Part shown: piece by piece, positions 20,626 to 37,786 of the stretch
Layout of the letters: the number at the start of each line of letters is the position of its first letter
Numbering within the stretch: position 1 is the stretch's first letter
Program-made: the position numbers and the translations under genes
Assembly (NCBI RefSeq): GCF_014596445.1
Contig: NZ_MECL01000158.1
Span: 1-64,000, forward strand
Length of the DNA: 64,000 bases
Direction of reading: 5' to 3'
From: Streptomyces sp. CBMA29
GTDB lineage: Bacteria; Actinomycetota; Actinomycetes; Streptomycetales; Streptomycetaceae
The notes under the pieces: generated by a model
What the model was told of the DNA's origin: nothing
The model's database searches: none
Seen by the model: only the letters and a program-made list of their open reading frames with translations

Positions 20626-20746
20626 CTGCACAAACCTCCTTGAGGCCCCGCCTCCGTTGGTCACGCGATCATGGCGAGCCGCGTACGCCCAGACCTTACG
20701 GGTCTACCCTCGGTACACCGCACCACGGAGCGAAGGAGCGGCCACC

Positions 20747-21943
20747 GTGGAATCAGATCGACTCATCGGGCAGCGCATCCGCGAGCACCGCGACAGACAG
20801 GGCCGGAATCAGAGCGTCGTGGCCGGCCTGTGCGGAATCAGCGAGGACTATCTGTCCCGAATCGAGCGGGGCAAGAAGACGCCCACGCTGCCGGTCCTGA
20901 TGGCCATCTCCCGTGAGTTGCGTGTTCCCGTAGCCGTTCTCCTTGGTGATACTTCGGCTCCTGAGACGACCTCACATGAGTCTTTCATCGAACAGGACGT
21001 CGCTCAGGCTCTGCTGGGGTACGCAGACGGCCACAACCGACCGTTGCTGTCGCCCAGCGCGTTACGCAAGGCGGTAGAGGGCGCCTGGCGCACCTGGCAG
21101 ACGAGCAAGACGCGGTTCACCGACGCCTCTGCCGTGCTGCCCTGTCTGATCACCGACGTGGAGAACGCGGTCCGTTTCCACCGGACGGGCACGGACATTG
21201 AAGCGAAGCGCGAAGTTCTGCGGTGCGCCGCGGATCTCTACTTCCTTCTCCGGTCCTACTGCCGCCGTACTGGTCGCGGTGACCTCTCGTTGATGGTGGC
21301 CGATCGCGGCATGCGGGCCGCGGAGGACGCCGACGATCCCCTACGAATTGCAGCCGCCCAATGGAACTTGGGTCACATATTGCTGGGCACCGATGAGCCG
21401 GAAGCCGCCGCAGAGGTGGCAGCGCGCGGCATCGAACGACTTGTCAGGACCCCACAAGCGAATACTGCCGCGATGGTCGGCGCTCTTCACCTCGTGGCCG
21501 TTGTCGCAGACTGCCGGCGCAAGAACTTCTGGGCCGCTCGCGACAGGCTTCGCGAGCAGGCGGCACCGCAGGGTGAACGCGTAGGCGACGGCAACGTCCT
21601 CCACACCGTTTTCGGCCCGACGAATGTGGCGCTGCACGCGGTCTCCCTCGACATGGAGGCAGGTGAATCAAGCGCCGCCCTAAATCTGGCCGACAGCATC
21701 GACACCAACGGCCTCCCCCTGGAACGCCAGTTCACCTTCCAGCTTGAGGTCGCCCGTTGTTGGGACCTCCGCAAGGAAGACGCCGCCGTGCTGGTGCACC
21801 TGCTGGACCTCGAAGAGTTGGCGCCGGAGGATCTCGCGCGAAGCCCGCTGGCCAGGCAGATGATCACCGATCTACGCAAGTGCGTCCGGGCGACCTACCG
21901 GAAGCAGGTTGTCGGACTCGCCGAGCGGGTCGGGGTTCACTGA
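20747..21943 (+). CDS. XRE-family transcriptional regulator with helical repeat domain
   Basis: A 398-residue protein. Residues about 8-65 form an XRE helix-turn-helix (IGQRIREHRDRQGRNQSVVA, CGISEDYLSRIERGKKTPTL). The long C-terminal region is helical with TPR-like repeats (AAQWNLGHILLGTDEPEAAA, then FQLEVARCWDLRKEDAAVLV), a layout used for peptide or small-ligand sensing. GTG 20747 follows GAAGGAG by 8 bases. It lies directly upstream of the lanthipeptide locus on the same strand and is a candidate regulator for it, from position only. Confidence 0.85.
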   Translation: MESDRLIGQRIREHRDRQGRNQSVVAGLCGISEDYLSRIERGKKTPTLPVLMAISRELRVPVAVLLGDTSAPETTSHESFIEQDVAQALLGYADGHNRPLLSPSALRKAVEGAWRTWQTSKTRFTDASAVLPCLITDVENAVRFHRTGTDIEAKREVLRCAADLYFLLRSYCRRTGRGDLSLMVADRGMRAAEDADDPLRIAAAQWNLGHILLGTDEPEAAAEVAARGIERLVRTPQANTAAMVGALHLVAVVADCRRKNFWAARDRLREQAAPQGERVGDGNVLHTVFGPTNVALHAVSLDMEAGESSAALNLADSIDTNGLPLERQFTFQLEVARCWDLRKEDAAVLVHLLDLEELAPEDLARSPLARQMITDLRKCVRATYRKQVVGLAERVGVH

Positions 21944-21945
21944 CT

Positions 21946-21979
21946 CCGGACTGCTGGTCCACCCGGACCAGCAGTCCGG
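21946..21979 (+). terminator. Strong hairpin terminator after the XRE gene
   Basis: A perfect 15-base stem (CCGGACTGCTGGTCC with GGACCAGCAGTCCGG, loop ACCC) begins 2 bases after the XRE stop codon. It insulates the regulator from the lanthipeptide genes. From there to 22250 I see no gene; the promoter for the downstream locus should lie within this stretch. Confidence 0.85.
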
Positions 21980-22250
21980 GTTGAGCCTCTGACCCGGCCC
22001 TAGCATCCATGGCACGTCGTTGTGGACGCAGCGGGAAGGGCGACAACCATGCGTAAGAATAGCCCGATTGCACGAGCAGTCGGGTTATCCGAGCAACTCA
22101 AATTCGCGACCGGCACATTCTTTTGAGTGGACTGCTGTCCAACGTGGCGTTTCCGGCGCATGGCACCCACACAACCAGGTGCCCCGAAAACGAAATACCT
22201 TGCTCGTACTTACGGAGACAATCATCAACCAGGTTCGCAACTCTACAGTC

Positions 22251-22739
22251 ATGACCGCCGACGACAACGGTCGTCGGCAGCCCGCGCCCTGGAGTACGCC
22301 GGGAATATGGACGATCACCACGGTCAACGGCTTTGCGGCATCGGGCTATTTACCCGATTGGGCTGAGGACGATCCCAGCGAGGTCGACGTTCCCATGGAC
22401 GCGCTCTCGATGCGGCTCACGGAGATCGGCCACCGCGTCCTGTACGACGGCCAAATGGTGAACATCGCGACCATGCCGTCTGCACAAGAGGTTGAGGAGG
22501 AGGCCGTCTTCGAAGCCGCCATCGACTGCAACCCATATAGTCCGGACCCCGTCCAGCGCGAACCGGTCGTCAACATCCACGTCGTTCCCGGACGGTGGAT
22601 TCCCGGCCTCGATCCCGCGGGCGTTGCTGCTGTAGCTGCGAAGCTCCACGCTCAAGCCGACCTCCTCACTGCCGTGGTGCGCCCCGCACTCATCGCCGCC
22701 CGTGAGGACTGGGCCGCTCACCATCCCGGCAGGAGCTGA
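22251..22739 (+). CDS. Hypothetical protein, DUF6907-like
   Basis: A 162-residue acidic protein. The C-terminal part (EPVVNIHVVPGRWIPGLDPA, then VAAVAAKLHAQADLL) resembles the DUF6907 proteins of Streptomyces accessory regions. The N-terminus (TPGIWTITTVNGFAASGYLP) is not recognised. ATG 22251 is the first methionine before the conserved part; its ribosome-binding site is weak, so the start is uncertain. It ends 44 bases before the methyltransferase gene and may belong to the same transcript. Function is unknown. Confidence 0.6.
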   Translation: MTADDNGRRQPAPWSTPGIWTITTVNGFAASGYLPDWAEDDPSEVDVPMDALSMRLTEIGHRVLYDGQMVNIATMPSAQEVEEEAVFEAAIDCNPYSPDPVQREPVVNIHVVPGRWIPGLDPAGVAAVAAKLHAQADLLTAVVRPALIAAREDWAAHHPGRS

Positions 22740-22783
22740 GCGCCTTGCCGAAGCCCACGGTCACACCGAGAGGAAATCCCCGT

Positions 22784-24031
22784 ATGGACGGCGTTCCCGC
22801 CATGACGCCCAAGATCGACCATGCCCCCGAGGCGGAGCAGCGATTGCGCGAGGCGTTGGTGCAGCAGCTCGTCGAGCTCGGTGCGGCGCGCAGCCCGAGG
22901 GTGATGGATGCCTTCCGCATCGTCCGTCGGCACTTGGCCACCCCGGATGCGGACATGGCCAGGACGTACCAGGCTGAAGTCGCGACGGTGACCAAGACGG
23001 ACGAGTACGGAGTGGACGTCAGCTCGGTGTCCGCTCCGCGCGTCCAGGCCATGCAGATCGAGCAGGCCGATATCGAACCGGGCATGACCGTGCTGGAGAT
23101 CGGCTCCGGCGGTCCGAACGCGGCCTATCTCGCGGAGATGGTCGGTGAGAGCGGCCGGGTCGTCACCATGGACATCGATCCGGAGGTGACGGACCGTGCC
23201 ACGGCGTTCCTGAAGGCCACCGGCTACCGGAACGTCAGCGTCGTCACTGCGGATGCGGAGCACGGAGCGCCGGACCACGCACCGTTCGACCGGATCGTCG
23301 TCACCGTCCAGGCCGCGGACGTCCCGTCGGCCTGGATCCAGCAGCTCCGTGAGGGCGGACGCCTCGTCGTACCGCTACGGATGCGTGGCATGACGCGCAC
23401 GGTCGCTTTCGTACGCCACGGCGACCACCTCGTCAGCGATGGATTCGAGCTGTGCGGATTCGTACCCATGCAGGGCGTCGGAGAGAACCGGGTCCGCTTG
23501 GCGGTTCTTCATGACGAGCAAGGCGAAGAGATCGGTCTGCGCCTGGACGGGCACCCCGAGCCGGACACCGCCGCTCTCGCCAAAGCCCTGGCGGCGCCGC
23601 GGACCACCGAGTGGTCGGGGGTGACGCTGGCCGGTGACGAGTCCAACGAACACCTGGACCTGTGGCTGACGACCGCGCTCGACAACCTCCCGCTGCTGGC
23701 CGCGAAGCCTGAGGCGCGTGCGCGCGGCCTCGTCGCTTCGGCCTCGCCTCTCGGGATCCCGACGCTTGTCGACGGCGGCAGTTTCGCCTATCGAACGGTG
23801 CGCGCCACCGACGTCGAGGACCGCTACGAGTTGGGCGCGGTCGGGCACGGGCCACAGGGTCGGCAGCTCGCCGAGCGCCTCGTCGAGGAGATCCGCGTCT
23901 GGGACCGGGACCACCGTAGCGACCGGGCGCAGATCGAGGTCTACCCGGCGGGCACGCCGGACGACCGGCTTCCCGCCGGCGGTCGCCGCGTCGAGCGGCG
24001 GCACTCGCGGGTCACGATCACCTGGCCGTAG
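22784..24031 (+). CDS. Protein-L-isoaspartate O-methyltransferase-like enzyme, FxLD system
   Basis: A 415-residue SAM-dependent enzyme. The N-terminal 200 or so residues match protein-L-isoaspartate methyltransferases, with motif I VLEIGSGGPNAAYLAEMVGE and a downstream FDRIVVTVQAADVPSAWIQQ. A C-terminal extension of about 180 residues, not present in the repair enzyme, is the pattern of the FxLD-system methyltransferase family. Related lanthipeptide- and graspetide-linked enzymes methylate Asp and lead to aspartimide or isoaspartate in the peptide, so the substrate is probably an Asp in the downstream precursor. ATG 22784 follows GAGAGGA at a good distance. The precursor gene begins 55 bases after its stop. 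Confidence 0.85.
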   Translation: MDGVPAMTPKIDHAPEAEQRLREALVQQLVELGAARSPRVMDAFRIVRRHLATPDADMARTYQAEVATVTKTDEYGVDVSSVSAPRVQAMQIEQADIEPGMTVLEIGSGGPNAAYLAEMVGESGRVVTMDIDPEVTDRATAFLKATGYRNVSVVTADAEHGAPDHAPFDRIVVTVQAADVPSAWIQQLREGGRLVVPLRMRGMTRTVAFVRHGDHLVSDGFELCGFVPMQGVGENRVRLAVLHDEQGEEIGLRLDGHPEPDTAALAKALAAPRTTEWSGVTLAGDESNEHLDLWLTTALDNLPLLAAKPEARARGLVASASPLGIPTLVDGGSFAYRTVRATDVEDRYELGAVGHGPQGRQLAERLVEEIRVWDRDHRSDRAQIEVYPAGTPDDRLPAGGRRVERRHSRVTITWP

Positions 24032-24086
24032 CCAACCGGGCAACGGCAGGGCAGCACATCCCTACAACCTCATTGAGGAGAGCGAG

Positions 24087-24287
24087 ATGGCAGCGCAGAT
24101 CACTCACACGTCCGGCACCGTCCTCAAGGCGGCGACCGATTTCCGCGCGGACGGCGGGGACTTCGACTTGAACATCGAGACGATCGACTCGGCTCCGGTC
24201 CTCGGCTGGTTGTTGAACGACACCAGCGACAACTGCACGTCCACGTGCAACTCGGCGTGCTCGAACAGCACCTGTATCGGCGGCTGA
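24087..24287 (+). CDS. FxLD-type lanthipeptide precursor
   Basis: A 66-residue precursor starting at ATG 24087 after a GAGGAG box. The leader carries the family motif region as FDLN (residues 26-29; the usual Asp is Asn here), followed by IETIDSAP. The C-terminal core region from about Gly40 reads GWLLNDTSDNCTSTC, then NSACSNSTCIGG, with 4 Cys and 9 Ser/Thr, suited to lanthionine formation. Asp45 and Asp48 lie at the start of this region and are candidate targets for the neighbouring methyltransferase. The gene sits between the methyltransferase and LanB genes. Confidence 0.9.
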   Translation: MAAQITHTSGTVLKAATDFRADGGDFDLNIETIDSAPVLGWLLNDTSDNCTSTCNSACSNSTCIGG

Positions 24288-24395
24288 TCCGGCCGAAGGC
24301 CAACCCCGCGGTTGACAAAGCATCGGGGCGAGCGAGCCCGAGATCGGCTCCCTCGCCCCCGGACCCCCGGGAGCCCGCGATCGGAAGGAGCACGG

Positions 24396-27300
24396 ATGTA
24401 TCAACAGATTGACGCGGGCATGATCAGAATGTCGGTCTTTCCGCTCACCTCGACGACGCCTTCCTGGCCCGGCGAGAGCGCCACCCTCGAACAGATTCGT
24501 ACGTGGCTGAAGGAAGTATGGGCGGACGTCCCTCGCGCGGAGGCGATCGGCCACGCGGCGCCGCTCCTCACGAGCGCGGTTCGCACGGCGATCGACGGCA
24601 CGGCACGCCCTGCGCGCCTGCGGCGGACCGGGCGGGCAGCGGCCCGCTATCTGGTGAGAATGCGGTACCGAGCCACCCCTTTCGGACTCTTCGCCGGCTC
24701 GACCACCGTGTCCTTCGGCCAGGAGGCACATGTTCATCGGGGCAGTCGTCACCGCGCCTACGCCTGCGCCGACGCCACCTGGCTGCACGAGATCACCGCA
24801 GCCCTGGAGCACGACCCGGCCGTGCTACCGCGTCTCACGGTCGTGACCGACCCGACCTGCACCGTGCGCGGGGCCCGGATCGTCGTCGCGCACCAACCCG
24901 GTACGGACGGGCCGACCGACACCAGCCTGCGGCGGACTCGCGCTGCCGAGACGGCGCTCGGGATCGCCCGCTCCCCCGTCCAGGTCCGCGACCTGGTCGA
25001 CAAGCTCCACGCGGGCTACCCCGATACGCCGAAACCGGTCGTCCAGGAAATGGTGCGCGACCTCGTCTCGCACCGGGTACTGCTGACCGGTCTCCAACCG
25101 CCGATGACGTGTACGGACACGCTGGGCCACCTGATCGCGCGTCTCGACGAGGCCGGTGCTACGACGAGGACTGCTCAACTCCGCCCGATCCAGCGGCTTC
25201 TGCACCTGCACGACCACGCGTCCACCGAGGACCAGCCGCGCCTGCGGGCGGAGGCAGCCGAAGCGATGACCGCGATCACCCGCGGCACCGCGAGCCCGCT
25301 CATGGTCAATGTCCGCCCGGACTGCGACGTCGTCCTGCCGGATGAGGTCGCCCGCGAGGCGGAGCGCGCCTTGGCGGTGATGGCCCGCATCACGCCGTAT
25401 CCACAAGGCTCTCCCGCGTGGAGCGACTATCGGGCGCGGTTCCTGGAGCGCTACAGCATGGGCAGCGTCGTTCCTGTACGTGAACTGACCGACCCCGACA
25501 CCGGGTTGGGCTTCCCCGTCGGCTTCCGGGGCACCGTGCTGCCCCGCCCCGTACTCGCGACGACACCGCGCGACGAACATCTCCTCGCGCTCGCCCAGGA
25601 CGCCGCGCTCACCGACAAGCGCGAGATCGTTCTCACCGACGGGGACATGGAAGCCCTGTCCCTCGGCGAACCCGCCCAAGTCCCCGCTCACGTCGAGTTG
25701 TGCTTCAGCGTGCTCGCACTGTCCGCCCGCGCGTTGACCGAGGGCCGCTTCAACCTCTCCACCGTCGGCCTGTCGCTGGCCGCCGGTACCCTGACCGGCC
25801 GTTTCCTGCCCATGCTGGAACCCGCCGAACTCGCCCAGGTGGCGGCCGGTTATACCGCGCTGCCGACGCTGACCGACGGCGCGGTGCGGACACAGATCTC
25901 CGCACCGCCGCTGAAACGCCAGACGCACAACGTCGGCCGCGCGCCCCTCCTCGCACCCGAGGCGCTGTCCGTCGGGGAGCACAACCCGGACGCCACGCTC
26001 GGCCTTGACGACCTGGGGGTCACCGCCGATTCCGCACAGCTCTACCTCGTCTCCCTCTTGTCCGGGCGGATCATCGAACCGACCGTGATGAACGCCGTCG
26101 AGCTGAGCACCGCGACCCATCCCCTGGTGCGCTTCCTCTCCGAGCTGCACCGTTCCCACGCCGCGATCCTCATCCCCTTCGCCTGGGGCGCTGCGGCCCG
26201 ACTCCCGTTCCTACCGGAAGTCCGCTACGGCCGCACCATCCTGTCCGGCGCCTGCTGGCGGCTGCACGCCCGCGACGTGACCGAGCCACGGGAATGGACG
26301 AAGCACTTCACCAACTGGCGTATTCGATATGGCGTCCCCCGCACTGTGACCGTCGGTTCCGACGACAAGCAGCTCCGCCTCGACCTCGACCTCGCCGCCG
26401 ATCGTGACCTCCTGCGAGCCGAGGTCGACCGTCATGGCACCGTCGTTCTCCACGAAGCGCCGGAGGAGAGCGCCTTCGGTTGGATCGGTCACGCACACGA
26501 AGTGACCGTGCCGTTCGCCGCCAACCAGCAACCCGTGCCACACCCGACTCGCGGTGCCACGTATGTACGCGAGGCCGCGCGGATACCGGGCTCCACGGAC
26601 TGGGCCTATCTGAAGGTCTACGGCAGCGAGGCACGCGTCCCGGATGTGCTGACGGCCCATCTACCCCGGCTGCTGGCCGAGTTGGAGAACATCACGGAGT
26701 CGTGGTTCATCCGCTACGCGGACCCCGACGCGCACCTACGGGTCCGGCTTCGCCTGGCCGCGACCGACGCGTTCGGCCCGGTTACACGAGAGGTGGCCGC
26801 GTGGGCGGCTGAGCTGAGCGAAGAGGGTCTGATCCACCGTGTCCAATGGGACACCGACCAACCCGAGACCGGCCGCTACGGCACCGGCGCCGCGCTCGCC
26901 GCCGCGGAGACGTACTTCGCCGCCGATTCAACCGCCGCCCTGGCGCAGATGCGGCTCGCCGTACCGGCCGACCTGCGTCCCGGCGTCACTGCGGCGTCGT
27001 TCGTGGACATCGCCAGCGGCCTTCTCGGCTCGCGGTCAGCCGGGCGTGACTGGCTGATACGGCACCTGCCACGCAGCGACGCCGCGCCGGCTCCTCGCCC
27101 CGCGCAGGCTCTCGCTCTGCGACTGACCGATAGCGACGGCCCGAGGGCGGTCCTGGGTGGTCTCGCCGGAGGCGATGCCGTGGGGAGTACCTGGACGGAG
27201 CGGCGCGAGGCCCTCGCCCGCTATCGCCAGGCACTCGACGCTCAGGGAATCACCCCCTCCACCGTCCTGCCGTCCCTGCTCCACATGCACCACAACCGCG

Positions 27301-27398
27301 TCGCAGGCATCGACCTCGACGCCGAGGCCACCTGCCGCCGCACGGCCCGCGCCGCAGCTCTGTCCTGGATCACTCGTTCCCAAGGAGTACCTCGGTGA
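24396..27398 (+). CDS. lanB: Lantibiotic dehydratase, full-length LanB
   Basis: A 1000-residue LanB. The N-terminal part is the tRNA-Glu-dependent glutamylation domain (YLVRMRYRATPFGLFAGSTT is its hallmark, then VHRGSRHRAYACADATWLHE). The C-terminal 250 or so residues are the SpaB_C / thiopeptide-type elimination domain (STDWAYLKVYGSEARVPDVL, ESWFIRYADPDAHLRVRL). Together these should dehydrate Ser and Thr of the precursor. ATG 24396 has GGAAGGAG 6 bases upstream. The LanC start codon overlaps its end. Confidence 0.93.
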   Translation: MYQQIDAGMIRMSVFPLTSTTPSWPGESATLEQIRTWLKEVWADVPRAEAIGHAAPLLTSAVRTAIDGTARPARLRRTGRAAARYLVRMRYRATPFGLFAGSTTVSFGQEAHVHRGSRHRAYACADATWLHEITAALEHDPAVLPRLTVVTDPTCTVRGARIVVAHQPGTDGPTDTSLRRTRAAETALGIARSPVQVRDLVDKLHAGYPDTPKPVVQEMVRDLVSHRVLLTGLQPPMTCTDTLGHLIARLDEAGATTRTAQLRPIQRLLHLHDHASTEDQPRLRAEAAEAMTAITRGTASPLMVNVRPDCDVVLPDEVAREAERALAVMARITPYPQGSPAWSDYRARFLERYSMGSVVPVRELTDPDTGLGFPVGFRGTVLPRPVLATTPRDEHLLALAQDAALTDKREIVLTDGDMEALSLGEPAQVPAHVELCFSVLALSARALTEGRFNLSTVGLSLAAGTLTGRFLPMLEPAELAQVAAGYTALPTLTDGAVRTQISAPPLKRQTHNVGRAPLLAPEALSVGEHNPDATLGLDDLGVTADSAQLYLVSLLSGRIIEPTVMNAVELSTATHPLVRFLSELHRSHAAILIPFAWGAAARLPFLPEVRYGRTILSGACWRLHARDVTEPREWTKHFTNWRIRYGVPRTVTVGSDDKQLRLDLDLAADRDLLRAEVDRHGTVVLHEAPEESAFGWIGHAHEVTVPFAANQQPVPHPTRGATYVREAARIPGSTDWAYLKVYGSEARVPDVLTAHLPRLLAELENITESWFIRYADPDAHLRVRLRLAATDAFGPVTREVAAWAAELSEEGLIHRVQWDTDQPETGRYGTGAALAAAETYFAADSTAALAQMRLAVPADLRPGVTAASFVDIASGLLGSRSAGRDWLIRHLPRSDAAPAPRPAQALALRLTDSDGPRAVLGGLAGGDAVGSTWTERREALARYRQALDAQGITPSTVLPSLLHMHHNRVAGIDLDAEATCRRTARAAALSWITRSQGVPR

Positions 27399-28546
27399 CC
27401 ACCGCCCCGTCCGGCACCGACGCCTCGCTGTCTGCTCGGCAGTCCTTCGCACACGGTCCCCTCGGTACCGCCTTGCTGGCCGTCGAGCGGGCACGCCGCG
27501 GTACCGGCGACTGGCACGACGTGCACCGCGTACTTGGCGAGATCGGCCCGCTGATGGGCGGACCTGACGCAAACCTCTTCCTCGGCGCCCCGGCAATGGC
27601 CTTCGTCCTCCACCTCGCCGCCGACGGCACGAACCGATACGGCGGCGCACGGCGCACCCTCGACGGCATCGTGACCACCCACACGCATCAGCGCCTGGCC
27701 GCGGCACACGCCCGTATCGACGCCGGACGGTCCCCGTCGTTCGCGGAGTACGACCTGTTCCGCGGGCTGACGGGCATCGGCGCCCTGCTCTTGCTCCGGT
27801 CGCCCAACAGCCCCGAACTCAATAGCGTCCTGGAGTACCTCGTACGCCTCACCGAGCCCGTCGTCGACTCCGCCAGCGGCGAGTCCCGGCCCGGCTGGTG
27901 GGTCGCACACGCCCCGGCCAGCGACCCGACGGCCACCCCCGGCGGACACGCGAACGCGGGCATGGCGCACGGCATTACCGGCCCCCTTGCTCTCCTCGCC
28001 CTGGCCAAACGCGCGGGCGTCACCGTGGCCGGGCACGACGGCGCCATGGTCCGGATCTGCCGGTGGCTCGACCGGATTCGCCAGAGCGACCACGGTGGTC
28101 TTCGCTGGCCGCGATGGATCAGTGCCAGTGGGCCCGCTCCAGCTCTCCCGTGTACGCCGTCGTGGTGCTACGGAACTCCAGGACTCGTTCGCGCACAGCA
28201 ACTCGCGGCCATCGCTCTTGGCGACAATGATCGCAAACGGATGGCTGAACGGGCGCTGCTCCGCTGTCTGACCAATCCGTCCGAACTCTCCAGGGTCGCC
28301 GACCGCGGTCTGTGTCACGGCGTCGGCGGCGTCCTCCGGACCGTCCAGCGTGTCGCAGAGGACGCCGACGACCCGACTGCTTTCGCCCGCCACCTCGGCC
28401 CCCTCGCCGTCCGGTTCCTGATGGCCGAGACTCCGCAGGAAGGCGGATTCCTGGTCGGAAGAGCCGGAGCCGTCCTCGGCTTCCAGGACGCCGAATGCGG
28501 CGCCGCGCCCCAGGGTCGGTGGGACGCCTGCCTCCTCCTGGCCTGA
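27395..28546 (+). CDS. lanC: Lanthionine synthetase C-like cyclase
   Basis: A 383-residue LanC-family protein that should add Cys thiols to dehydrated residues. The zinc ligands expected of LanC are present: Cys in PSWCYGTPG and the Cys-His pair in RGLCHGVGG. The conserved block GGHANAGMAHGITGPLALLA lies before them. GTG 27395 overlaps the LanB stop by 4 bases (GTGA), implying translational coupling. Confidence 0.92.
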   Translation: MTTAPSGTDASLSARQSFAHGPLGTALLAVERARRGTGDWHDVHRVLGEIGPLMGGPDANLFLGAPAMAFVLHLAADGTNRYGGARRTLDGIVTTHTHQRLAAAHARIDAGRSPSFAEYDLFRGLTGIGALLLLRSPNSPELNSVLEYLVRLTEPVVDSASGESRPGWWVAHAPASDPTATPGGHANAGMAHGITGPLALLALAKRAGVTVAGHDGAMVRICRWLDRIRQSDHGGLRWPRWISASGPAPALPCTPSWCYGTPGLVRAQQLAAIALGDNDRKRMAERALLRCLTNPSELSRVADRGLCHGVGGVLRTVQRVAEDADDPTAFARHLGPLAVRFLMAETPQEGGFLVGRAGAVLGFQDAECGAAPQGRWDACLLLA

Positions 28547-28557
28547 GAGGAAGCAGC

Positions 28558-29496
28558 GTGCCCCAGGACACGAACCGCACGGAGGACGCCGTCCTGGCCG
28601 TCCTCGGCGGGATCCCCGTAGCCGAAGCCGCCCGAGCAGCTCACACCACGCCCGGCCGCCTCTCCGAAGCGATCAAGCACTACCGCGCCGCAGGCCGAGC
28701 CTCCCTCGACGCCCAGCCCTCCACCTGGCAGCAGGTCAACATCCGCTTCGCCGACTACCCCATGGCCGAACGCGCCTTCCACGCCTACCTCCTGCCCGCC
28801 CTGCTGTCCGGGCCCGTGGGCGCCTGGTGGTTCGTACGCAAGCACCCCCACTGGCGGCTGCGTTATCACCCTGGACTTGACGCCACCAGCCCTATCACCT
28901 CAGCCCTCGACAATTCTGTCTCCCGTGGCGTCACCACGAACTGGCACCCCGCCCTGTACGAACCAGAAACCACCGCCTTCGGCGGCCCGACCGGCATGAA
29001 GCTCGCCCACGAGCTGTTTCACGCCGACAGCCTCGGCGTCCTCGACTACCTCCACGCCGCATCCGACAGCAGCAAGACATTGCCGGACGCCAAGGTGGCT
29101 TCCCTTCTCGGCATGACGCTGCTGATGCGTGCGGCCCGCCTCGAATACGGCGAGCAGGGGGACGTATGGGCGCGCGTGGAAGAACGCCGCCCACTCCCCC
29201 AAGACGTCACCCCGGACCAAATCAGCACCATGGTCACCCCGATGCGCCGCCTCCTCCTCACCGACGCCCACCCCCTCCTGAACTCCGGCGCCCTCGCCTT
29301 CATAAGCCCCTGGATCGCGGGCCTCGAACGCAGCGGACGGGACCTGGCAGACGCCGCCGAGAACGGCCAACTCAACCTCGGCGTCCGCGGCATCCTCGCG
29401 CGCCACGTCATCTTCCACTGGAACCGAATGGGCTTCCCCGCCCGACAGCAAGCCGTCTGGGCGCGCGCCGCCCGAGAAACCATTCTCGGCAGCTGA
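28558..29496 (+). CDS. Thiopeptide-type bacteriocin biosynthesis protein (stand-alone elimination-type domain)
   Basis: A 312-residue protein. Residues about 55-300 match the SpaB_C / thiopeptide-type domain (WQQVNIRFADYPMAERAFHA, GAWWFVRKHPHWRLRYHP, FGGPTGMKLAHELFHADS). The first 50 residues form a short helical lead (VAEAARAAHTTPGRLSEAIK). It resembles the C-terminal domain of the LanB encoded upstream, so the locus has this domain twice. GTG 28558 follows GAGAGGAAG, 11 bases after the LanC stop. It ends 38 bases before the first CRISPR array. Confidence 0.88.
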   Translation: MPQDTNRTEDAVLAVLGGIPVAEAARAAHTTPGRLSEAIKHYRAAGRASLDAQPSTWQQVNIRFADYPMAERAFHAYLLPALLSGPVGAWWFVRKHPHWRLRYHPGLDATSPITSALDNSVSRGVTTNWHPALYEPETTAFGGPTGMKLAHELFHADSLGVLDYLHAASDSSKTLPDAKVASLLGMTLLMRAARLEYGEQGDVWARVEERRPLPQDVTPDQISTMVTPMRRLLLTDAHPLLNSGALAFISPWIAGLERSGRDLADAAENGQLNLGVRGILARHVIFHWNRMGFPARQQAVWARAARETILGS

Positions 29497-29534: not shown

Positions 29535-30597
29535 GTTGCCCGCCCTCCTGGGCTGATGACGACCCCCGACGACGTCCTCGCCCAGGCCCTGTGGCATGCG
29601 TTGCGAGCCCTCCTGGGCTGATGACGACAGCTGGCGGGCGGTACGCCGCCCACGCTGCCCACGGGTTGCGAGCCCTCCTGGGCTGATGACGACCGGCGCA
29701 CCAAGCCCAGTCGAGCGGGCGGAAAGCGTGTTGCGAGCCCTCCTGGGCTGATGACGACGCTGGCGGCCCGCTACGCGTACGTGCACGGGATCGGGTTGCG
29801 AGCCCTCCTGGGCTGATGACGACCAGCAGCATCTGCATGCCGTCCAGGCGTGTCCTGTGTTGCGAGCCCTCCTGGGCTGATGACGACGGCGGCCACACTC
29901 GTGCTCGCCCTGGCCGAAGCCCGGTTGCGAGCCCTCCTGGGCTGATGACGACCGTACTGGCCCGCGATCTTCGCGGCCACCGGCAGCCGTTGCGAGCCCT
30001 CCTGTGCTGATGACGACGACGATGTCGGTCGTGCTGTCCCTGGACAGCTACGAGTTGCGAGCCCTCCTAGGCTGATGACGACACCGGTCGTCGTGCAGCC
30101 GGGCCCACTCGGGCATCGGTTGCGAGCCCTCCTGGGCTGATGACGACCGGCAACCTGCACGGCATCGGAGGCCAGCAGATCACGTTGCGAGCCTCCTGGG
30201 CTGATGACGACCTCCAGCAGCGCGCCGTACTCGCGCGCACCGTACTGGTTGCGAGCCCTCCTGGGCTGATGACGACGCGCAAGGCTCGGCGTAAGGACCG
30301 TGCCCACCGCGGTTGCGAGCCCTCCTGGGCTGATGACGACCGGCTGGGGTTCGGCCGGTCAGGCGATGTCGAGGGGTTGCGAGCCCTCCTGGGCTGATGA
30401 CGACCCTGGTCGAGGATCGTCAGCGCGTCGGTCCGGGCGCGTTGCGAGCCCTCCTGGGCTGATGACGACGACGGTGGAGATCAGCCCGGAGGAGTGGGCG
30501 CGCACGTTGCGAGCCCTCCTGGGCTGATGACGACGTCGGACACGGTGGTGGGTGACGGGCGGGCGCGGGTTGCGAGCCCTCCTGGGCTGATGACGAC
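29535..30597 (-). CRISPR. CRISPR array 1, 17 repeats of 29 bases
   Basis: Plus-strand repeats begin GTTGCGAGCCC and end GGGCTGATGACGAC. Starts are at 29535, 29600, 29665, 29730, 29795, 29859, 29924, 29989, 30054, 30119, 30184, 30248, 30312, 30376, 30441, 30506 and 30569, giving 16 different spacers of about 34-36 bases. The leftmost repeat is degenerate (GTTGCCCGCCC), as at a leader-distal end. The repeat at 30184 lacks one C; those at 29989 and 30054 have single changes. The leader lies on the right, so transcription should run leftward, away from cas6. I recognised none of the spacers' targets. Confidence 0.98.
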
Positions 30598-30680
30598 CCG
30601 AGGGTAAAGGTAGTGGTCAGGCGGGGTCGTTGGACGGGTTTGTGAGGCGAAAGTGCGGCGACCCGACGGTAGTGCATCAG
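30598..30680 (-). promoter_or_regulatory. Leader of CRISPR array 1
   Basis: Read on the minus strand towards the array, it contains GATGCACTACCG (30667-30678) about 80 bases before the first repeat. It ends in CTGACC-4 bases-CCTTTACCCTCG directly at the repeat. The same two elements occur at the same distances before array 2, which fixes the leader side of both arrays. The next 160 bases rightward hold no gene. Confidence 0.8.
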
Positions 30681-30979: not shown

Positions 30980-31669
30980 GTGCGGTTGAGAGTGGATGTC
31001 GAGGCCGATACGCCGACGTTGCGGTGGGAGGATGTGCACGGTCCGGCGCGGGGCGTCGTGTACGGGCTGTTGCGAAGCCAGGATCCCGAACTGGCTCAGT
31101 CGTTGCATGACGTCGGGTGGCGGGGGCATCCGCTGAAGCCGATCGGGCTGACGGCTCCCCAGTTTCGAGGGGCTCGGCGACAGCGGGGCGAGTACACGAC
31201 CTCGTCCGACGGTTCCATGTGGTTCGGCTCTCCCGTTCCGGAGATTGCGGCTGTGCTTGTTGCCGCGCTCGCTTCGCGGACGGAAATTGAATGGGGGGCG
31301 ACGCGCCTGCGGTTGCGCGGATTCACCGTCGATATGGGCGCCACAACTGTCGGCGGCGTGGTTGAGCTGGCGACCGCAACTCCCGTCGTGATCAGACACG
31401 AGGGCCATGATCTGCTTCCCGGTGATGAGCATTATGTCGAACGGTTGGAGCACAACCTGGTCCATAAAGCGGATGTGCTGGGCATGCCCGCGCCGCAGGG
31501 CCTGCGCGTGCTGGAGGGCGGTCCGCGACGGCGGTTCACCGTACGGGGAGCGCCACGGATCGGGGCGCAGGTGCGGGTGTCGATGGAAGCCGAGGCACCC
31601 TACGTGGACGCACTTCGGTCGTGGGGGCTCGGGCTCGACACGGTGCAGGGGTTCGGATGGATCCGGTAG
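30980..31669 (+). CDS. cas6: CRISPR-associated endoribonuclease Cas6
   Basis: Cuts the array transcript within each repeat to give crRNAs. The 229-residue protein begins as a ferredoxin-like Cas6 (MRLRVDVEADTPTLRW). It carries His43 and His50, both possible catalytic residues, in a segment followed by PLKPIGLTAPQF. It ends with the glycine-rich loop LGLDTVQGFGWIR of the family. GTG 30980 is the first start before the conserved strand. The cas8 start at 31657 overlaps its end, so translation is coupled. Confidence 0.88.
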   Translation: MRLRVDVEADTPTLRWEDVHGPARGVVYGLLRSQDPELAQSLHDVGWRGHPLKPIGLTAPQFRGARRQRGEYTTSSDGSMWFGSPVPEIAAVLVAALASRTEIEWGATRLRLRGFTVDMGATTVGGVVELATATPVVIRHEGHDLLPGDEHYVERLEHNLVHKADVLGMPAPQGLRVLEGGPRRRFTVRGAPRIGAQVRVSMEAEAPYVDALRSWGLGLDTVQGFGWIR

Positions 31670-33084
31670 CCGTGGCGAGCACGACCAGACACCTGACCGC
31701 GACGAGCCATCCCCTGCAGCGGGCCGGCGCGTGGGCCGTGTGCGTGATGGCTGGTCGCGCAAGCGCGGGCCAGATGGTCGCTGCGGACCTGGACGCTGTC
31801 GCGACGCGCATCGTGGAGGACGTCGCGGAAGCGGCGTCGGCGGACAAGGACACACCGCGTTACGACTGGTGGAAAGTTCTGTTCGCGCTGTATCCGAATT
31901 CGAAGGCGACCCATGCCAGCCGCCCTCGTGACCGCACCGTACTCAAGAGCGCCCTCGTGGAGATGTTCGCACCCGACGATCACGATCGTCCCGTACGGCC
32001 GTGCACCTTTTGTGGCGCGGGCTCCACGTCGATTTGGGCGAAGTCGATGCTGCCGATGTTCGATACGAACAAGGCGCTCAATACGCTGCCCCCTGGGCTG
32101 GCTGGATGGCCGGTGTGTCGAGGCTGTCGCCTGGCGATGTGGGCGCTGCCGTACGGATCGTGGGTCACGGCGGGATCGGCGACGGTCTTGTCGTGTGAAC
32201 AGGATTCGGCGGAACGAGAGTTCGCCGAGCGCAATGTGGTCAGGGCACGCCGGATCATGCACGCGGGCTTCACGGGCCTTGTGGCGGGTGTACGGCCGGA
32301 ACTGGTCACCCTCCGGGCCTTGCGCAATGCCGGGCCGGACCTGTCGGCGACCACCTTGTGGAGTTTCAAGAACGACAACCAGGAGCCATGGCTGCGTGTG
32401 ACACGTACTCGCCGCGCGGTTCCGACCTTCCTGGCTGCGGTCCAGGGCAACGCGCCGCTGCGCCGTGGATGGCGGCTGCTGGAGACAGCCCTGACCCAGC
32501 GGGACAAGAACGGTCAGGTGACCGTCGGCGGTCCGGCCGAGGCGGCACGGCTGCTGTTCGAGGCGGAGGACGGACGGAGCCGGTCGCTGTCGCGGCAACT
32601 GCACGACCTGCTCTGGGACACCGATCGGTGGCGCAGCCAGGACCGTGCGGCCCTGACTCGCCTTGCCTACAGCTACGAGAAAGAGGTTCACGGCATGGAG
32701 CCGAACCTGAGCGGGGTGGCGACTCTGATCGCCGACTGGATCGAGCACGGCAGCGGCAGCCCTCGCGGCCGTCTGGCCGAATATCGCAACGCCGGGCTGA
32801 ACGGCTATCGGCTGGGCGCGCTCCTCTACCAGGCCAGCTTTCGTCTCAAGTTCGACGGCAGGGCCGTCACGATCAGCGCCGAGGAGTGGAAACCGCTGGT
32901 GACGCAGCGGCCCCGCGCCTGGGAGCAGCGGATGTTGCTGGCCGCCGAAGTGCTGAGGATTCTGGACCAGCGCGGGGTGGTGGTGAACACTCCTCCGGCC
33001 GACGAGCGCGAGCGCGAGCAGGTCGAACAACTGATGCGGGAGCCGATTCTCGCTCTTCACGACGACGAACTGGGACCGGCGTAA
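31657..33084 (+). CDS. cas8: Type I-B large subunit Cas8 (Cst1-like)
   Basis: A 475-residue protein in the position of the Cascade large subunit. It has two CxxC pairs forming a zinc-finger-like pattern (PCTFCGAGSTS and WPVCRGCRLAMWAL, about residues 103-150), as in Cst1/Cas8b of the Tneap-type I-B systems. Sequence similarity in this family is low, so the call rests on these cysteines, length and gene order. ATG 31657 lies inside the end of cas6. Its TAA overlaps the cas7 start. Confidence 0.82.
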   Translation: MDPVAVASTTRHLTATSHPLQRAGAWAVCVMAGRASAGQMVAADLDAVATRIVEDVAEAASADKDTPRYDWWKVLFALYPNSKATHASRPRDRTVLKSALVEMFAPDDHDRPVRPCTFCGAGSTSIWAKSMLPMFDTNKALNTLPPGLAGWPVCRGCRLAMWALPYGSWVTAGSATVLSCEQDSAEREFAERNVVRARRIMHAGFTGLVAGVRPELVTLRALRNAGPDLSATTLWSFKNDNQEPWLRVTRTRRAVPTFLAAVQGNAPLRRGWRLLETALTQRDKNGQVTVGGPAEAARLLFEAEDGRSRSLSRQLHDLLWDTDRWRSQDRAALTRLAYSYEKEVHGMEPNLSGVATLIADWIEHGSGSPRGRLAEYRNAGLNGYRLGALLYQASFRLKFDGRAVTISAEEWKPLVTQRPRAWEQRMLLAAEVLRILDQRGVVVNTPPADEREREQVEQLMREPILALHDDELGPA

Positions 33085-34154
33085 TGACGTATCTCGCAGG
33101 CAAGATGGTGCTCGCGATCGAGGCGGGCGCACCCAACAACGGCAAGAGCGAGGACACCACGGCACGGGTGAAGTTCGCGACCGTGCGGGGTCGACGGCAC
33201 CCGTATGTTTCGGCTCAGGCGGTGCGCCGGTGGATCCGGGACGGCATGGTCGAGCAGGGCTCGGTGCCCTCACCTGTGACACGTGTCGGCAAAGCCCAGA
33301 ACCGGGCACAGAAGGCGAACACCGACGCGGACCCGATCCACTATGCCGACGACGACCTCTTCGGCTACATGCGGGCCGGGGCCAAGAAGGAAGACGCGGC
33401 GACGACGCTGCGGGACAGCCCGTTCATGCTCGGCACGTTGATGTCGGTCGCACCGGTGTATCCCACGGAGGACTTCGGTGTGATGTCGCGAGGGGTGAGC
33501 GAACCCGTACTGCACGGCCACGAGTTCTACACCGCGGACCTCGCCGCGCCCTTCCTGCTCGACCTCCCCCGCATCGGCACTTTCACGCTGCCCACAGCGG
33601 AGGGAGTCGGACGGCCGAACTACCTCAGCCAGGAAGAGGCATTGCGGGTCGCCGCCGCTGCCGCAGCAGGCGCGACAGCGGTGACGTTCCGCGACCAGCC
33701 CGCGGTACGGCTGCCGATCGCGGAGCGCAGCAGGCGTGCGGCAATGTTGCTGGAATCGCTTGCCCATCTCAGCGGGGGCGCCAAAAAGGCGCTGCACTAC
33801 GGCGACCGGGTCCCCTCTGTCATTGTGCTGGTGCCGTTCAAGGGCGGCATCAATCCGCTGGCCAACTGCGTCGACGGCGAAGAGGGGGTGGGCCTCAGGA
33901 TCCGCGGCGATGTTCTTCGCAAGGAGCTGGCGGCATGGGACGGTGAATGGGAAGCTCCGGTCCGGATCGGCTGGCGCCCCGGTTTCCGGGACGATCTCCG
34001 CGAGGACTTCGAGAAGGAATGCGCAGTCGAACTCGGTGAGAAGTCCATCGTGATCGACCATCCCCGCACCGTGCTGCGCAGGTTGGCGGCTGATCTCCGC
34101 GACGGCAAACTCAACGCCTGGTTCGACGACCCCGCGGATGCCCCCCGTGCCTGA
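33084..34154 (+). CDS. cas7: Cascade backbone protein Cas7 (Cst2/DevR family)
   Basis: A 356-residue RAMP protein that should polymerise along the crRNA. The start MTYLAGKMVLAIEAGAPNNG fits the Cst2/DevR pattern. The middle contains DSPFMLGTLMSVAPVYPTED and FGVMSRGVSEPVLHGHEFY. ATG 33084 shares its A with the cas8 stop (TAATG). Its last 17 bases overlap the cas5 start. Confidence 0.88.
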   Translation: MTYLAGKMVLAIEAGAPNNGKSEDTTARVKFATVRGRRHPYVSAQAVRRWIRDGMVEQGSVPSPVTRVGKAQNRAQKANTDADPIHYADDDLFGYMRAGAKKEDAATTLRDSPFMLGTLMSVAPVYPTEDFGVMSRGVSEPVLHGHEFYTADLAAPFLLDLPRIGTFTLPTAEGVGRPNYLSQEEALRVAAAAAAGATAVTFRDQPAVRLPIAERSRRAAMLLESLAHLSGGAKKALHYGDRVPSVIVLVPFKGGINPLANCVDGEEGVGLRIRGDVLRKELAAWDGEWEAPVRIGWRPGFRDDLREDFEKECAVELGEKSIVIDHPRTVLRRLAADLRDGKLNAWFDDPADAPRA

Positions 34155-34848
34155 TGACGCGCTGCCGACCTGGCGGTTTGAGTTCTACGCCCCGGTGGCG
34201 TCCTTCCGGGATCCGCTCTTCCCCGGCCTTTCCCACGGTCTACCGGTGCCGCCGCCCTCCACCGTGCGGGGGATGCTGGCCGCAGCTACCGGCAAACCGT
34301 CAGAGCTGGTGCCGTTCGGCATGGCGTCCTACGGCGACGGCAATGGCGTCGACGCCGAGACCTACCACCCCATCGACGCCGGCGGAGCGAACCGGGCCGT
34401 GTCCGGCCGGGTCCGGGCGGGGAAGGGCGGAATGACGATTCGCGACCGGCCGTTCCTCGTCGGCGTGCATCTGACGGTGTGGATCCCAGGACGGGACGGC
34501 GACCGTATCGAGCAGGCGCTGCGCCGCCCACGCTGGGCGCTGCGCCTGGGACGCTCGCAGGACATCGTTCACCTGCGGGAGCGGTGCCAGGTGGCCTTGG
34601 AGCCCGCAAGCGATGCTGTGGTCGACCATGCATTGGCGCCAGTGGGCAGTCACGCCGCACCGTCCGCCGTCGTTCACCGTTTGGCGTCCGCGGTATCCAC
34701 CGACCGTCTGACCACGACTTGGGCCGACTACCAGTGGTGCGAGGAACAGACAGGCAATTGGCCCGTGTCAGGCGCTTATCGAGAACGAACCGTGCCAGGG
34801 CAAGACCGTGATCTACCGGGGAGGGCTGTATGGCTGCTCACCCCGTAG
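34138..34848 (+). CDS. cas5: CRISPR-associated protein Cas5
   Basis: A 236-residue RAMP protein capping the 5' end of the crRNA in Cascade. The N-terminal signature is WRFEFYAPVASFRDPLFPGL, followed by LPVPPPSTVRGMLAAATGK, the conserved Cas5 block. It overlaps cas7 at its start and cas3 at its end. Confidence 0.88.
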   Translation: MPPVPDDALPTWRFEFYAPVASFRDPLFPGLSHGLPVPPPSTVRGMLAAATGKPSELVPFGMASYGDGNGVDAETYHPIDAGGANRAVSGRVRAGKGGMTIRDRPFLVGVHLTVWIPGRDGDRIEQALRRPRWALRLGRSQDIVHLRERCQVALEPASDAVVDHALAPVGSHAAPSAVVHRLASAVSTDRLTTTWADYQWCEEQTGNWPVSGAYRERTVPGQDRDLPGRAVWLLTP

Positions 34849-37250
34849 CTCCCGTCACTCGACGGCGCGGCCTCACGGAAGTACGGGCGAAATCCACACC
34901 GCCAGCGGACCCGGAACGGCTGACCACGCACTCACGCACCGTCCACGACACAGTTGCGCAGATCGAGACCCGCAGCGGGCAGGCGGGGATCCTGGCAACC
35001 GACCCCGCATTCTGGCGGCGAGTGCGCCACGCCGCGCTGCTCCACGACACGGGCAAGGTCGCCGAAGGCTTCCAGCAGCAACTCTTGCCCGGTCATGACG
35101 CCTGGGGGCAACGGCACGAGGTGCTGTCACTCGCGTACGTCGATATCCTCGGCGCCACGGCAGGCTGGAGTGACCAAGATCGGTTCATGGTGGCGACACT
35201 GGTCGCCACCCACCACCGGGCACTGCACTCCGCATCATCCGACAGCGGCGGCAAACCGGCCTTGTCCCAGCTCTACAACGAGCACACCGACTGGAGCGAG
35301 GCCTTCAGCCTCGCTCCAGGCGCCACCCCCGGCCAGCCCCAAGTCCAGGTCACCAAAGGCCTGCACGGCGAACTACTCGCCTGGTTGAGCGGCTTCCTCA
35401 GCATGGACCCGCCGCTTGGTACCCCGAGAGGGCCATCCCTGGCGGAACGGTCGCGTCTACTGCTTCAGCAGCTCCTGGACACCTGGCGCCAGCCCGTCAA
35501 ACCCGATCAAGGCCTTCTCGCCGTTCTCGCCCAAGGTGCGCTGACTCTCGCCGATCACGCCGGTTCCGCCCACGTGGATCTCCAGACGCACATGCCGCTC
35601 CTACCGGACTACCTGAACCGTCTCCCCTACCCGGCATACCCGCACCAGCAGCAGGCCGCCACCACCCGGGGCCATCTCATCCTGGTCGCTCCCACCGGCA
35701 GCGGAAAGACCGAGGCCGGACTGGCCTGGGCAGCAGAACAGCTCTCCACCATGCCGGGACAGCCCCGGCTGGTGTGGACGCTGCCGTACCGCGCATCCCT
35801 CAACGCAGTACGCCGACGCTTCGAACGAGACCTGGTGCCGCCGCCCGGCCAGCGAAAGCCCGACATCGGTCTGCTTCACGGCACCGTCGCCCACACACTG
35901 CTCACCCAGTCCACGGACGACGACTGCTCCGCCGGCACGCCAGCGGCAACCCCGACCGCCGAGCAAGCCCGCAAAGCACGAGCGCAGGCCGGCGCCATGC
36001 GCTTGTTCACCCAACGGCTCCGCGTGGCCACGCCCCACCAGCTCCTGCGCGGCGCCATCGCCGGCCCCGTCTACTCCTCCGTCCTACTCGAACAGGCCAA
36101 CTCGCTCTTCGTCCTGGACGAGCTGCATGCCTACGATCCCGCCACGTTCGGCCGCCTGTGCGCTGCCATGCGCCTGTGGGAGCGACTCGGCAGCCGGGTG
36201 GCCGTCCTGTCCGCCACCCTCTCCAAGACGATGACCGGCATCATCGACGAGAGTCTGGAGCAGGGCGTCACCGTCCACGAAGCTCCGCAAGGCACCAGCC
36301 CCGTGCGGCACCGGCTCGTCCTCGACGAGAAGCCGTTCGATGCTCCGGAGAGCATCGAACGGCTGCGCACCTGGCTCAGGGAGGGATACAGCGTTCTGGC
36401 GGTGACGAACACTGTCAACGGTGCCCAGAGTCTCTTCGACCAGCTCTCCGCAGAAGCTCGCGAAGCCCGGCCTGGCGATCCCTACGCCGCGCTGCTGCTC
36501 CACTCGCGCTTCAAGAACCGTGATCGCGGCCTGATCGAGAAGAGCCTGCTGCAACGCCACCCCGAGCGGCATCCGGACGAGGGCGCTCATCGCGGCGGCC
36601 TGGTCGTCGCCACCCAGACGGTCGAAGTGTCGTTGCAACTCGACTTCGACCGGGGTGCGGTGGACAACGCGCCGATCGAGGCGGTCGCCCAACGCGCCGG
36701 CCGGGTCAATCGCCGGGGTCTCCACCCCGACGGCCCCTCCGAATTCCGCGTTCACCGCACAGAAGGACACCGGCCCTACGACGCCGACGCGGTCGACGCC
36801 GCCTGGTCCGCGCTTACCGATCTGGATTCCCAGGGCTCTGACACGCTCAGCGAACAGGACATCGAACGCCTGCTGGCCCATGCCTACGACACACCGTGGG
36901 GCCGGAAATGGGAGATCGAGGCCAGGCGCAGCCGCGACGCTTTCACCGCACAGTTCCTGACCTTCACCGACCCGTTCCACGACCGCAGCGAATTCGCCAA
37001 GGCCCTCAACGAGCAGTTCGACAGTGTCGAAGTCCTGCATCGCGACGACGCCGACGAGTACCGGAGTTTGGCCCTGGGCAAGAAGGGCGATCCCCTGCTC
37101 GCCGCAGGGCTGCTCATCCCGTTGCGCTACCGCCAACTCAAGCAGTATCAGGCCGAGTTCGATCGCCGCTTGGGCGTACACCTCATCGTCGGCGACTACG
37201 ACCCGGTCACCGGTCTGCGGCCCCCGTCCGAACCGGAAACCATCCTGTGA
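34830..37250 (+). CDS. cas3: CRISPR-associated helicase-nuclease Cas3
   Basis: An 806-residue fusion of HD nuclease and SF2 helicase, which degrades target DNA recruited by Cascade. HD-domain residues are in ALLHDTGKVAEGF, GQRHEVLSLAY and VATHHRALHS. Helicase motifs are VAPTGSGKTEAGLAWA (Walker A), FVLDELHAYDPATF (DExH-like), VLSATLSKTM and VAQRAGRVNRRG. ATG 34830 is 13 bases after GGGGAGG. It overlaps the end of cas5, and GTGA couples it to cas4. Confidence 0.95.
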   Translation: MAAHPVAPVTRRRGLTEVRAKSTPPADPERLTTHSRTVHDTVAQIETRSGQAGILATDPAFWRRVRHAALLHDTGKVAEGFQQQLLPGHDAWGQRHEVLSLAYVDILGATAGWSDQDRFMVATLVATHHRALHSASSDSGGKPALSQLYNEHTDWSEAFSLAPGATPGQPQVQVTKGLHGELLAWLSGFLSMDPPLGTPRGPSLAERSRLLLQQLLDTWRQPVKPDQGLLAVLAQGALTLADHAGSAHVDLQTHMPLLPDYLNRLPYPAYPHQQQAATTRGHLILVAPTGSGKTEAGLAWAAEQLSTMPGQPRLVWTLPYRASLNAVRRRFERDLVPPPGQRKPDIGLLHGTVAHTLLTQSTDDDCSAGTPAATPTAEQARKARAQAGAMRLFTQRLRVATPHQLLRGAIAGPVYSSVLLEQANSLFVLDELHAYDPATFGRLCAAMRLWERLGSRVAVLSATLSKTMTGIIDESLEQGVTVHEAPQGTSPVRHRLVLDEKPFDAPESIERLRTWLREGYSVLAVTNTVNGAQSLFDQLSAEAREARPGDPYAALLLHSRFKNRDRGLIEKSLLQRHPERHPDEGAHRGGLVVATQTVEVSLQLDFDRGAVDNAPIEAVAQRAGRVNRRGLHPDGPSEFRVHRTEGHRPYDADAVDAAWSALTDLDSQGSDTLSEQDIERLLAHAYDTPWGRKWEIEARRSRDAFTAQFLTFTDPFHDRSEFAKALNEQFDSVEVLHRDDADEYRSLALGKKGDPLLAAGLLIPLRYRQLKQYQAEFDRRLGVHLIVGDYDPVTGLRPPSEPETIL

Positions 37251-37786
37251 GCGCGCCCGGCGACACCCCGTACGGCCCCGCCCAGCCCGATGGCGACAGC
37301 GCGTCGTTGGGCGGCGTCCACATCAAATATCTCCACCACTGCCCGCGCCAGCTCTGGCTCTACGGTCGCGGCTACCGCCCCGAACACCGCAGCGAACTGG
37401 TCGCCTTCGGGGAAGTCGTCGACGACACCACCTTTATCCGGCGCCGCGACATCGACCTCGGCGAAGCCAAAATCGACTGGGTCACCACCGGGGCCATCGT
37501 CCACGAAACGAAGTCCTCGCGCGCCCCATCCCCGGCGCACGCCGCACAAGTCCGCCACTACTGCCTCTTGCTGGAGCGCCGGGGAATCACTGTACGAGGC
37601 GGCACCGTCCATTACCCCCTGATCCGCCGCACCACCGACGTGCCGTGGGACGACGACGCCCGCGCCGAAGCCGAGAACGCCGAAGCCCAAGCTCACGCCG
37701 TATTGGCCGCGACCACGCCGCCGCCACATCTCGCACGAAGAGAGTGCCGGGGCTGTTCCTATCTCGACTACTGCTGGGGAGACTGA
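37247..37786 (+). CDS. cas4: CRISPR-associated exonuclease Cas4
   Basis: A 179-residue RecB-like nuclease that trims and orients prespacers. The iron-sulfur cysteines are in YLHHCPRQLWLYGRG and the C-terminal CRGCSYLDYCWGD. The nuclease motifs GAIVHETKSS and AAQVRHYCLLL (QxxxY type) are present. GTG 37247 overlaps the cas3 stop; its own stop overlaps the cas1 start (TGATG). Confidence 0.93.
   Translation: MSAPGDTPYGPAQPDGDSASLGGVHIKYLHHCPRQLWLYGRGYRPEHRSELVAFGEVVDDTTFIRRRDIDLGEAKIDWVTTGAIVHETKSSRAPSPAHAAQVRHYCLLLERRGITVRGGTVHYPLIRRTTDVPWDDDARAEAENAEAQAHAVLAATTPPPHLARRECRGCSYLDYCWGD

Follow-up and report, generated by a model that had tools for sequence, protein, structure and literature searches.

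A probable LanSA-type lanthipeptide gene cluster with two predicted glutamyl lyases in Streptomyces sp. CBMA29

The gene cluster and its precursor peptide

This study concerns a lanthipeptide gene cluster in a 64,000-nucleotide stretch of DNA from Streptomyces sp. CBMA29 (contig NZ_MECL01000158.1, positions 1 to 64,000), hereafter the window. We confirm that an intact FxLD-type gene cluster occupies positions 22784-29496. Its five genes, all unbroken and on the + strand, encode a methyltransferase, a precursor peptide, a full-length dehydratase (LanB), a cyclase (LanC) and a standalone protein of the Lant_dehydr_C family (Table 1), in the order that the initial annotation had given. The reading frames of LanB and LanC overlap by 4 bases. 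The methyltransferase scores 504 bits against TIGR04364 (cut-off 320) and the precursor 45.4 bits against TIGR04363 (cut-off 30), so that both lie above the curated thresholds that define the FxLD family. LanB is matched by Lant_dehydr_N (E=9e-187) and by Lant_dehydr_C, and the standalone protein by TIGR03891 (160.5 bits). With LanB and LanC encoded beside a precursor rich in Ser, Thr and Cys, the locus has the make-up of a class I lanthipeptide cluster.

Table 1. Positions of the cluster genes, of features within them and of an upstream neighbour
Feature	Position	Strand	Basis
Protein isoaspartate methyltransferase (PIMT)-like O-methyltransferase, 415 aa, LanSA type with C-terminal domain	22784..24031	+	TIGR04364, PF01135
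Precursor peptide, 66 aa	24087..24287	+	TIGR04363; 31 aligned relatives
Leader motif F26-D-L-N29 (FxLD position)	24162..24173	+	F-D-L constant, 31 relatives
Conserved region L42-G66, predicted core	24210..24284	+	conservation, pN/pS
Asp48 codon, predicted methyltransferase target	24228..24230	+	T-x-D-x-C Asp constant; OlvA homology
Full-length LanB dehydratase, 1000 aa, anti-type lyase residues	24396..27398	+	PF04738, PF14028
LanC cyclase, 383 aa	27395..28546	+	PF05147 (LANC_like); motifs HGITG, WCYG, LCHG
Standalone glutamyl lyase, 312 aa, predicted syn-type	28558..29496	+	PF14028, TIGR03891, residues, fold
HTH_28-like helical N-terminal extension of the standalone lyase, residues 1-53	28558..28716	+	HTH_28, model
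DUF6907 protein, 162 aa, cluster membership uncertain	22251..22739	+	PF21848, 51 bits

Precursors were compared in a full-length alignment of 31 distinct close sequences. The leader residues F-D-L are constant in all of them, and the position after them holds D, N, R, A or S (FDLN here), so a literal F-x-L-D is not diagnostic; the FxLD assignment made in the initial annotation holds for the family but not for the motif as written. The core follows a near-invariant consensus, L-L-n-D-T-x-D-x-C-x-s-T-C-x-S-A-C-s-N-S-T-C, in which T46, D48, C50, T53, C54, S56, A57, C58, N60, S61, T62 and C63 are constant, and the Asp of T-x-D-x-C is present in every precursor read. The ratio of nonsynonymous to synonymous differences (pN/pS; raw proportions with no correction for codon bias) falls from 0.86 in the leader through 0.43 in the middle to 0.36 in the core, which is under purifying selection. 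This difference between core and leader, together with the model scores and a gene order kept in more than 30 genomes, excludes chance as the source of the assignment. A sequence search of the PDB with the precursor, seeking OlvA, returned chance matches only.

The two residues that flank Asp48 switch as a pair, S-D-N (as here, 24225-24233) or G-D-G. Before and after the Asp, S/N is found in 15 precursors, G/G in 13, S/G in 2 and D/G in 1, with just 3 mixed cases among the 31. On the methyltransferase tree the S-D-N label is clustered yet has switched several times.

A scan with the standalone protein recovered 43 loci, nearly all from Streptomyces and most at 50-71% identity. Wherever the flanking sequence sufficed, the order methyltransferase, precursor, LanB, LanC and standalone protein was the same, across more than 30 Streptomycetaceae genomes. 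The host genome (8.48 Mb, 277 contigs) holds four TIGR04364 loci above the cut-off: that of the window, a sister locus with the same gene order (contig C63), one with a fusion of lyase and methyltransferase (C211) and one at which a lyase was not found (C83). In Actinacidiphila acididurans (loci L053 and L089), the equivalent LanB (4850-7838 of L053) lies in two open frames of 625 and 346 residues, either because the gene is naturally split or through a frameshift or sequencing error.

Active sites of the modifying enzymes

The positions that form the lyase site of NisB (a Tyr, Arg784/Arg786, Glu823, Arg826 and His961) were transferred through a structure-chain alignment. The LanB of the window carries Y, R, R, E, R and H at these positions, the residues of an anti-lyase, as do the LanBs of its group; among the LanBs compared, His961 is kept in 51 of 51 and Arg826 in 49 of 50. 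The lyase domain of the window's LanB is predicted to be of the anti type. The standalone protein instead carries K95, R100, R102, E137, A140 and I285: Lys replaces the Tyr, the Arg pair is retained, Arg826 has given way to a hydrophobic residue and the catalytic His is gone. The same marks recur in nearly all relatives, with Lys in 55/55, Ala at the Arg826 position in 57/57 and L, I, V or T at the His961 position in 57/57. Residue marks that separate syn- from anti-lyases have been published, (E)-dehydrobutyrine ((E)-Dhb) has been demonstrated for SptBb, and CoiSA(ED) eliminates glutamate and requires its Lys (PMC9486935). The standalone Lant_dehydr_C protein is therefore best explained as a putative syn-glutamyl lyase of the SptBb/CoiSA(ED) type. 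The initial annotation had called it thiopeptide-type, which is the name of the model rather than of a function; it missed the role of this glutamyl-lyase homologue, which should, by its predicted activity, set the stereochemistry of the rings.

An AlphaFold model of this protein (mean predicted local distance difference test, pLDDT, 87.6) matches the class I dehydratases NisB, MibB and MadB at Z about 20. A sequence search of the PDB with the protein gave no match up to E=1. Residues 1-53 are helical in the model and score 24.5 bits against HTH_28, just below the cut-off of 25; this helix-turn-helix-like extension may serve in substrate docking. Loci L101 and L102 combine precursors and LanBs like those of the window with a separate lyase gene of the fused-coi type (WFMNK-QPW[PS]LRYR), a pattern which suggests that lyases have been exchanged between cluster types.

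The methyltransferase model (pLDDT 90.8) has a PIMT fold followed by a C-terminal domain and matches the PIMTs 2yxe and 1dl5; the residues of its S-adenosylmethionine site are invariant across the 43 relatives. The PIMT domain with its C-terminal extension, next to a core with a conserved Asp, agrees with the LanSA or lanthimiditide enzymes of the OlvSA type. OlvSA methylates Asp after cyclisation, and the succinimide of OlvA opens to 70-80% isoaspartate (isoAsp) (PMC13001092). By homology, the enzyme of the window would act likewise on the Asp of the cyclised peptide, and the Asp-derived modification proposed in the initial annotation gains support from this likeness.

A sister subfamily shows a different distribution of lyase residues. 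Among 200 Streptomycetaceae genomes, 18 LanBs reached 215 bits or more when scored against the sister query, and 12 further LanBs were fetched below 163 bits. Arg784 and Arg786 are both lost in 18/18 of the former and in 0/12 of the latter; in the sister proteins His, Arg or Gln stands in place of the Tyr, nearly all have Gln at the Glu823 position, and His961 is mostly retained. Read to the end of the cluster, the same 18 loci (L085, on contig C63 of the host genome; L092; L094-L100; L135-L143), with gene order as in the window, encode an intact K-R-R-E-A syn-lyase in every case. Nine of them group together with support on the methyltransferase tree, and the sister loci are probably one clade; the pattern was noticed post hoc. 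Full-length LanBs have been stated to be all predicted anti-lyases, and the pocket residues of the sister LanBs contrast with that prediction. Tentatively, the two groups could represent stages of a gradual evolutionary takeover by the syn-lyase, with both lyases and mixed stereochemistry in the window's group and dependence on the syn-lyase alone in the sister clusters; the near-invariant core, kept over about 30 species, would then belong to a signal or developmental factor and not to a diversifying antibiotic.

Proposed maturation and alternative explanations

Taken together, the locus is likely to make a class I LanSA lanthipeptide ('lanthimiditide') using two glutamyl lyases. The genes and their intactness, the conserved residues, the predicted folds and the purifying selection on the core form the basis of this reading, and we infer each chemical step by homology. 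LanB would glutamylate Ser and Thr of the core with Glu-tRNA, and its own lyase domain would remove glutamate by anti elimination, giving dehydroalanine or (Z)-Dhb. The standalone lyase would carry out syn elimination at one Thr at least, giving (E)-Dhb, and LanC would then close up to four thioether rings. The published rings of CoiA1 are T43-C47, T50-C55 and C51-T57, which at an offset of 3 become T46-C50, T53-C58 and C54-N60; of these, the first two are the rings expected in the present peptide. Two further rings would use C54 and C63 with S56, S59, S61 or T62, of which T62 is the likeliest site of syn elimination, leading to D-allo-L-methyllanthionine. LanSA would methylate Asp48 within the first ring (T46-S-D-N-C50), and the ester would pass through a succinimide to mostly isoAsp. 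The product should thus mix anti- and syn-derived lanthionine or methyllanthionine rings. IsoAsp and Asp have the same mass, and mass spectrometry of the end product may therefore reveal no shift at this residue; the modification may be visible only through the transient methyl ester (+14), the succinimide (-18) or nuclear magnetic resonance.

Several points weigh against this scheme. In CoiSA(ED), mutants showed the Arg pair and the Glu to be dispensable (PMC9486935), which leaves the Lys and the two replaced residues as the only real discriminators of a syn-lyase. The position of CoiA1 Thr57 is Asn60 here, and the third ring is thus not directly transferable: its donor would have to move to S61 or T62, and C63 would need S56, S59 or S61. 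Least secure in the proposal are the partners within the last two rings and the choice of the syn-eliminated residue. Asp48 is followed by Asn in place of the usual Gly, which may slow closure of the succinimide, and the end state of the LanSA reaction could be the succinimide itself.

The last of these end states deserves separate consideration. If the mature product bore a stable aspartimide (succinimide) at position 48, LanSA would be the maker of an electrophilic warhead. Several graspetides and lasso peptides have been isolated as stable aspartimides, and the Asn after Asp48 fits such an outcome; OlvA, the sole lanthipeptide studied, points the other way, since its succinimide is hydrolysed mostly to isoAsp, and we regard the warhead as possible but unlikely. 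It is improbable that the standalone lyase is either the only working lyase or redundant, leaving a product of a single stereochemical type. CoiSA(ED) alone is able to eliminate all three Thr of CoiA1, and the sister family apparently lacks the LanB lyase pocket, but the LanB of the window retains the Tyr, both Args, Glu, Arg826 and His961, and correct cyclisation in the coi system required both lyases.

Highly improbable, too, is a standalone protein that is no lyase at all and acts on dehydroamino acids in some other way, for instance by the [4+2] cyclisation that thiopeptide pyridine synthases carry out. It shares a superfamily and a model name with those enzymes, its model matches PbtD, TbtD and TsrL at Z 16-18, and a review has called a non-elimination role an 'intriguing possibility' (PMC7268733). 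The class I dehydratases are nevertheless the better structural matches, the glutamate-binding Arg pair and Glu are retained beside the syn-lyase Lys, elimination of glutamate is known for a homologue that bears these marks, and the sister family has lost the LanB pocket while keeping the standalone protein. As to a thiopeptide cluster, LanB is full-length and the azole-forming family is unmatched in the seven genes scanned (20744-29496 only); we reject a pyridine-synthase identity of the last gene in view of its active-site residues and context. That the cluster is silent or decaying and yields no product is scarcely credible, for although the locus revealed no dedicated protease or exporter, a promoter and terminator scan covering one promoter type found nothing above chance and the relatives have no reported native product, the ORFs are all intact, the catalytic motifs are retained, the core is under purifying selection and such clusters usually lack a protease.

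Genomic surroundings and comparison with known systems

The left edge proposed in the initial annotation, 22251, is the start of a separate DUF6907 gene that adjoins the cluster in only some relatives; the operon starts at 22784. As in the window, a DUF6907 gene immediately precedes the methyltransferase, with the same orientation, in several Actinacidiphila-group loci (L053, L085, L093, L096, L099 and L104), and in L093 a single open frame covers both. The family was not found near the Streptomyces loci read, which leaves a role as an obligate cluster gene unsupported, and the genome holds 15 copies above the cut-off. An XRE-type regulator lies upstream at 20744-21943. In the flanks of the relatives, judged by eye without a library scan, the commonest shared families resembled helix-turn-helix regulators and none resembled a protease or transporter, which lends no support to a conserved transporter, protease or immunity gene. 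About 40 bases past the lyase stop codon begins an array of clustered regularly interspaced short palindromic repeats (CRISPR; 29535-30598) with a 29-nucleotide repeat, GTTGCGAGCCCTCCTGGGCTGATGACGAC, and mostly a 65-base period; it is followed at 30980-38766 by cas6, Cas7/Cst2, Cas3 and a Cas1-type gene, of I-B character.

Overall, the interpretation in the initial annotation is partly supported. Its statement that FxLD products are little characterised is out of date, since OlvA and CoiA1 have been reconstituted in E. coli (PMC9486935), although none has been seen in a native host, and the locus is the best candidate in the window for a new natural product only as a further member of a known group. 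An 'additional stand-alone GL' (glutamyl lyase) beside a full LanB is one of three settings described for syn-lyases (PMC9486935), and the 2022 glutamyl-lyase network includes a group, known from sequence only, with the architecture of the window (PMC9486935). The locus type is therefore already known and widespread in Streptomyces-type genomes; in the literature searched we found neither a reconstituted member nor a native product of the group. Peptides of the FxLD/LanSA kind are abundant and conserved in actinobacteria, and the window offers a clean, compact example of a full LanB with a standalone syn-lyase and LanSA, from which testable predictions of ring stereochemistry and of a modified Asp follow. 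The useful contributions of this analysis are the stereochemical prediction, whose chemistry we infer, and the sister family.

Among characterised systems, spt (SapT; SptBa/SptBb/SptC) likewise has a separate syn-lyase with the same active-site marks, but its LanB is split with no anti-lyase left, whereas the window keeps an intact LanB lyase domain and adds a methyltransferase. The olv cluster of Streptomyces olivaceus NRRL B-3009 (OlvA/OlvB/OlvC/OlvSA) has LanB and LanC in common with the window, and its LanSA, too, is a standalone protein, which targets a conserved Asp; it lacks the extra lyase, and its ring stereochemistry should differ from that of the window, OlvA being compared here by description and not by sequence. 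The coi cluster of Streptomyces coelicolor A3(2) (CoiA1/CoiB/CoiC/CoiSA) has in common with the window a full anti-type LanB, LanC, a PIMT-like methyltransferase, an extra syn-type lyase and a TxDxC core whose Asp lies in the first ring. In coi, however, syn-lyase and methyltransferase form one fused protein. The window encodes them separately, as the last and the first gene of the operon; its lyase carries an extra helical domain at the N terminus, its core contains four Cys, and Asn follows the Asp. The window and sister clusters, one with both lyases and the other with the LanB lyase seemingly inactivated, provide a natural counterpart of the LanB lyase-mutant comparison made by the coi authors.

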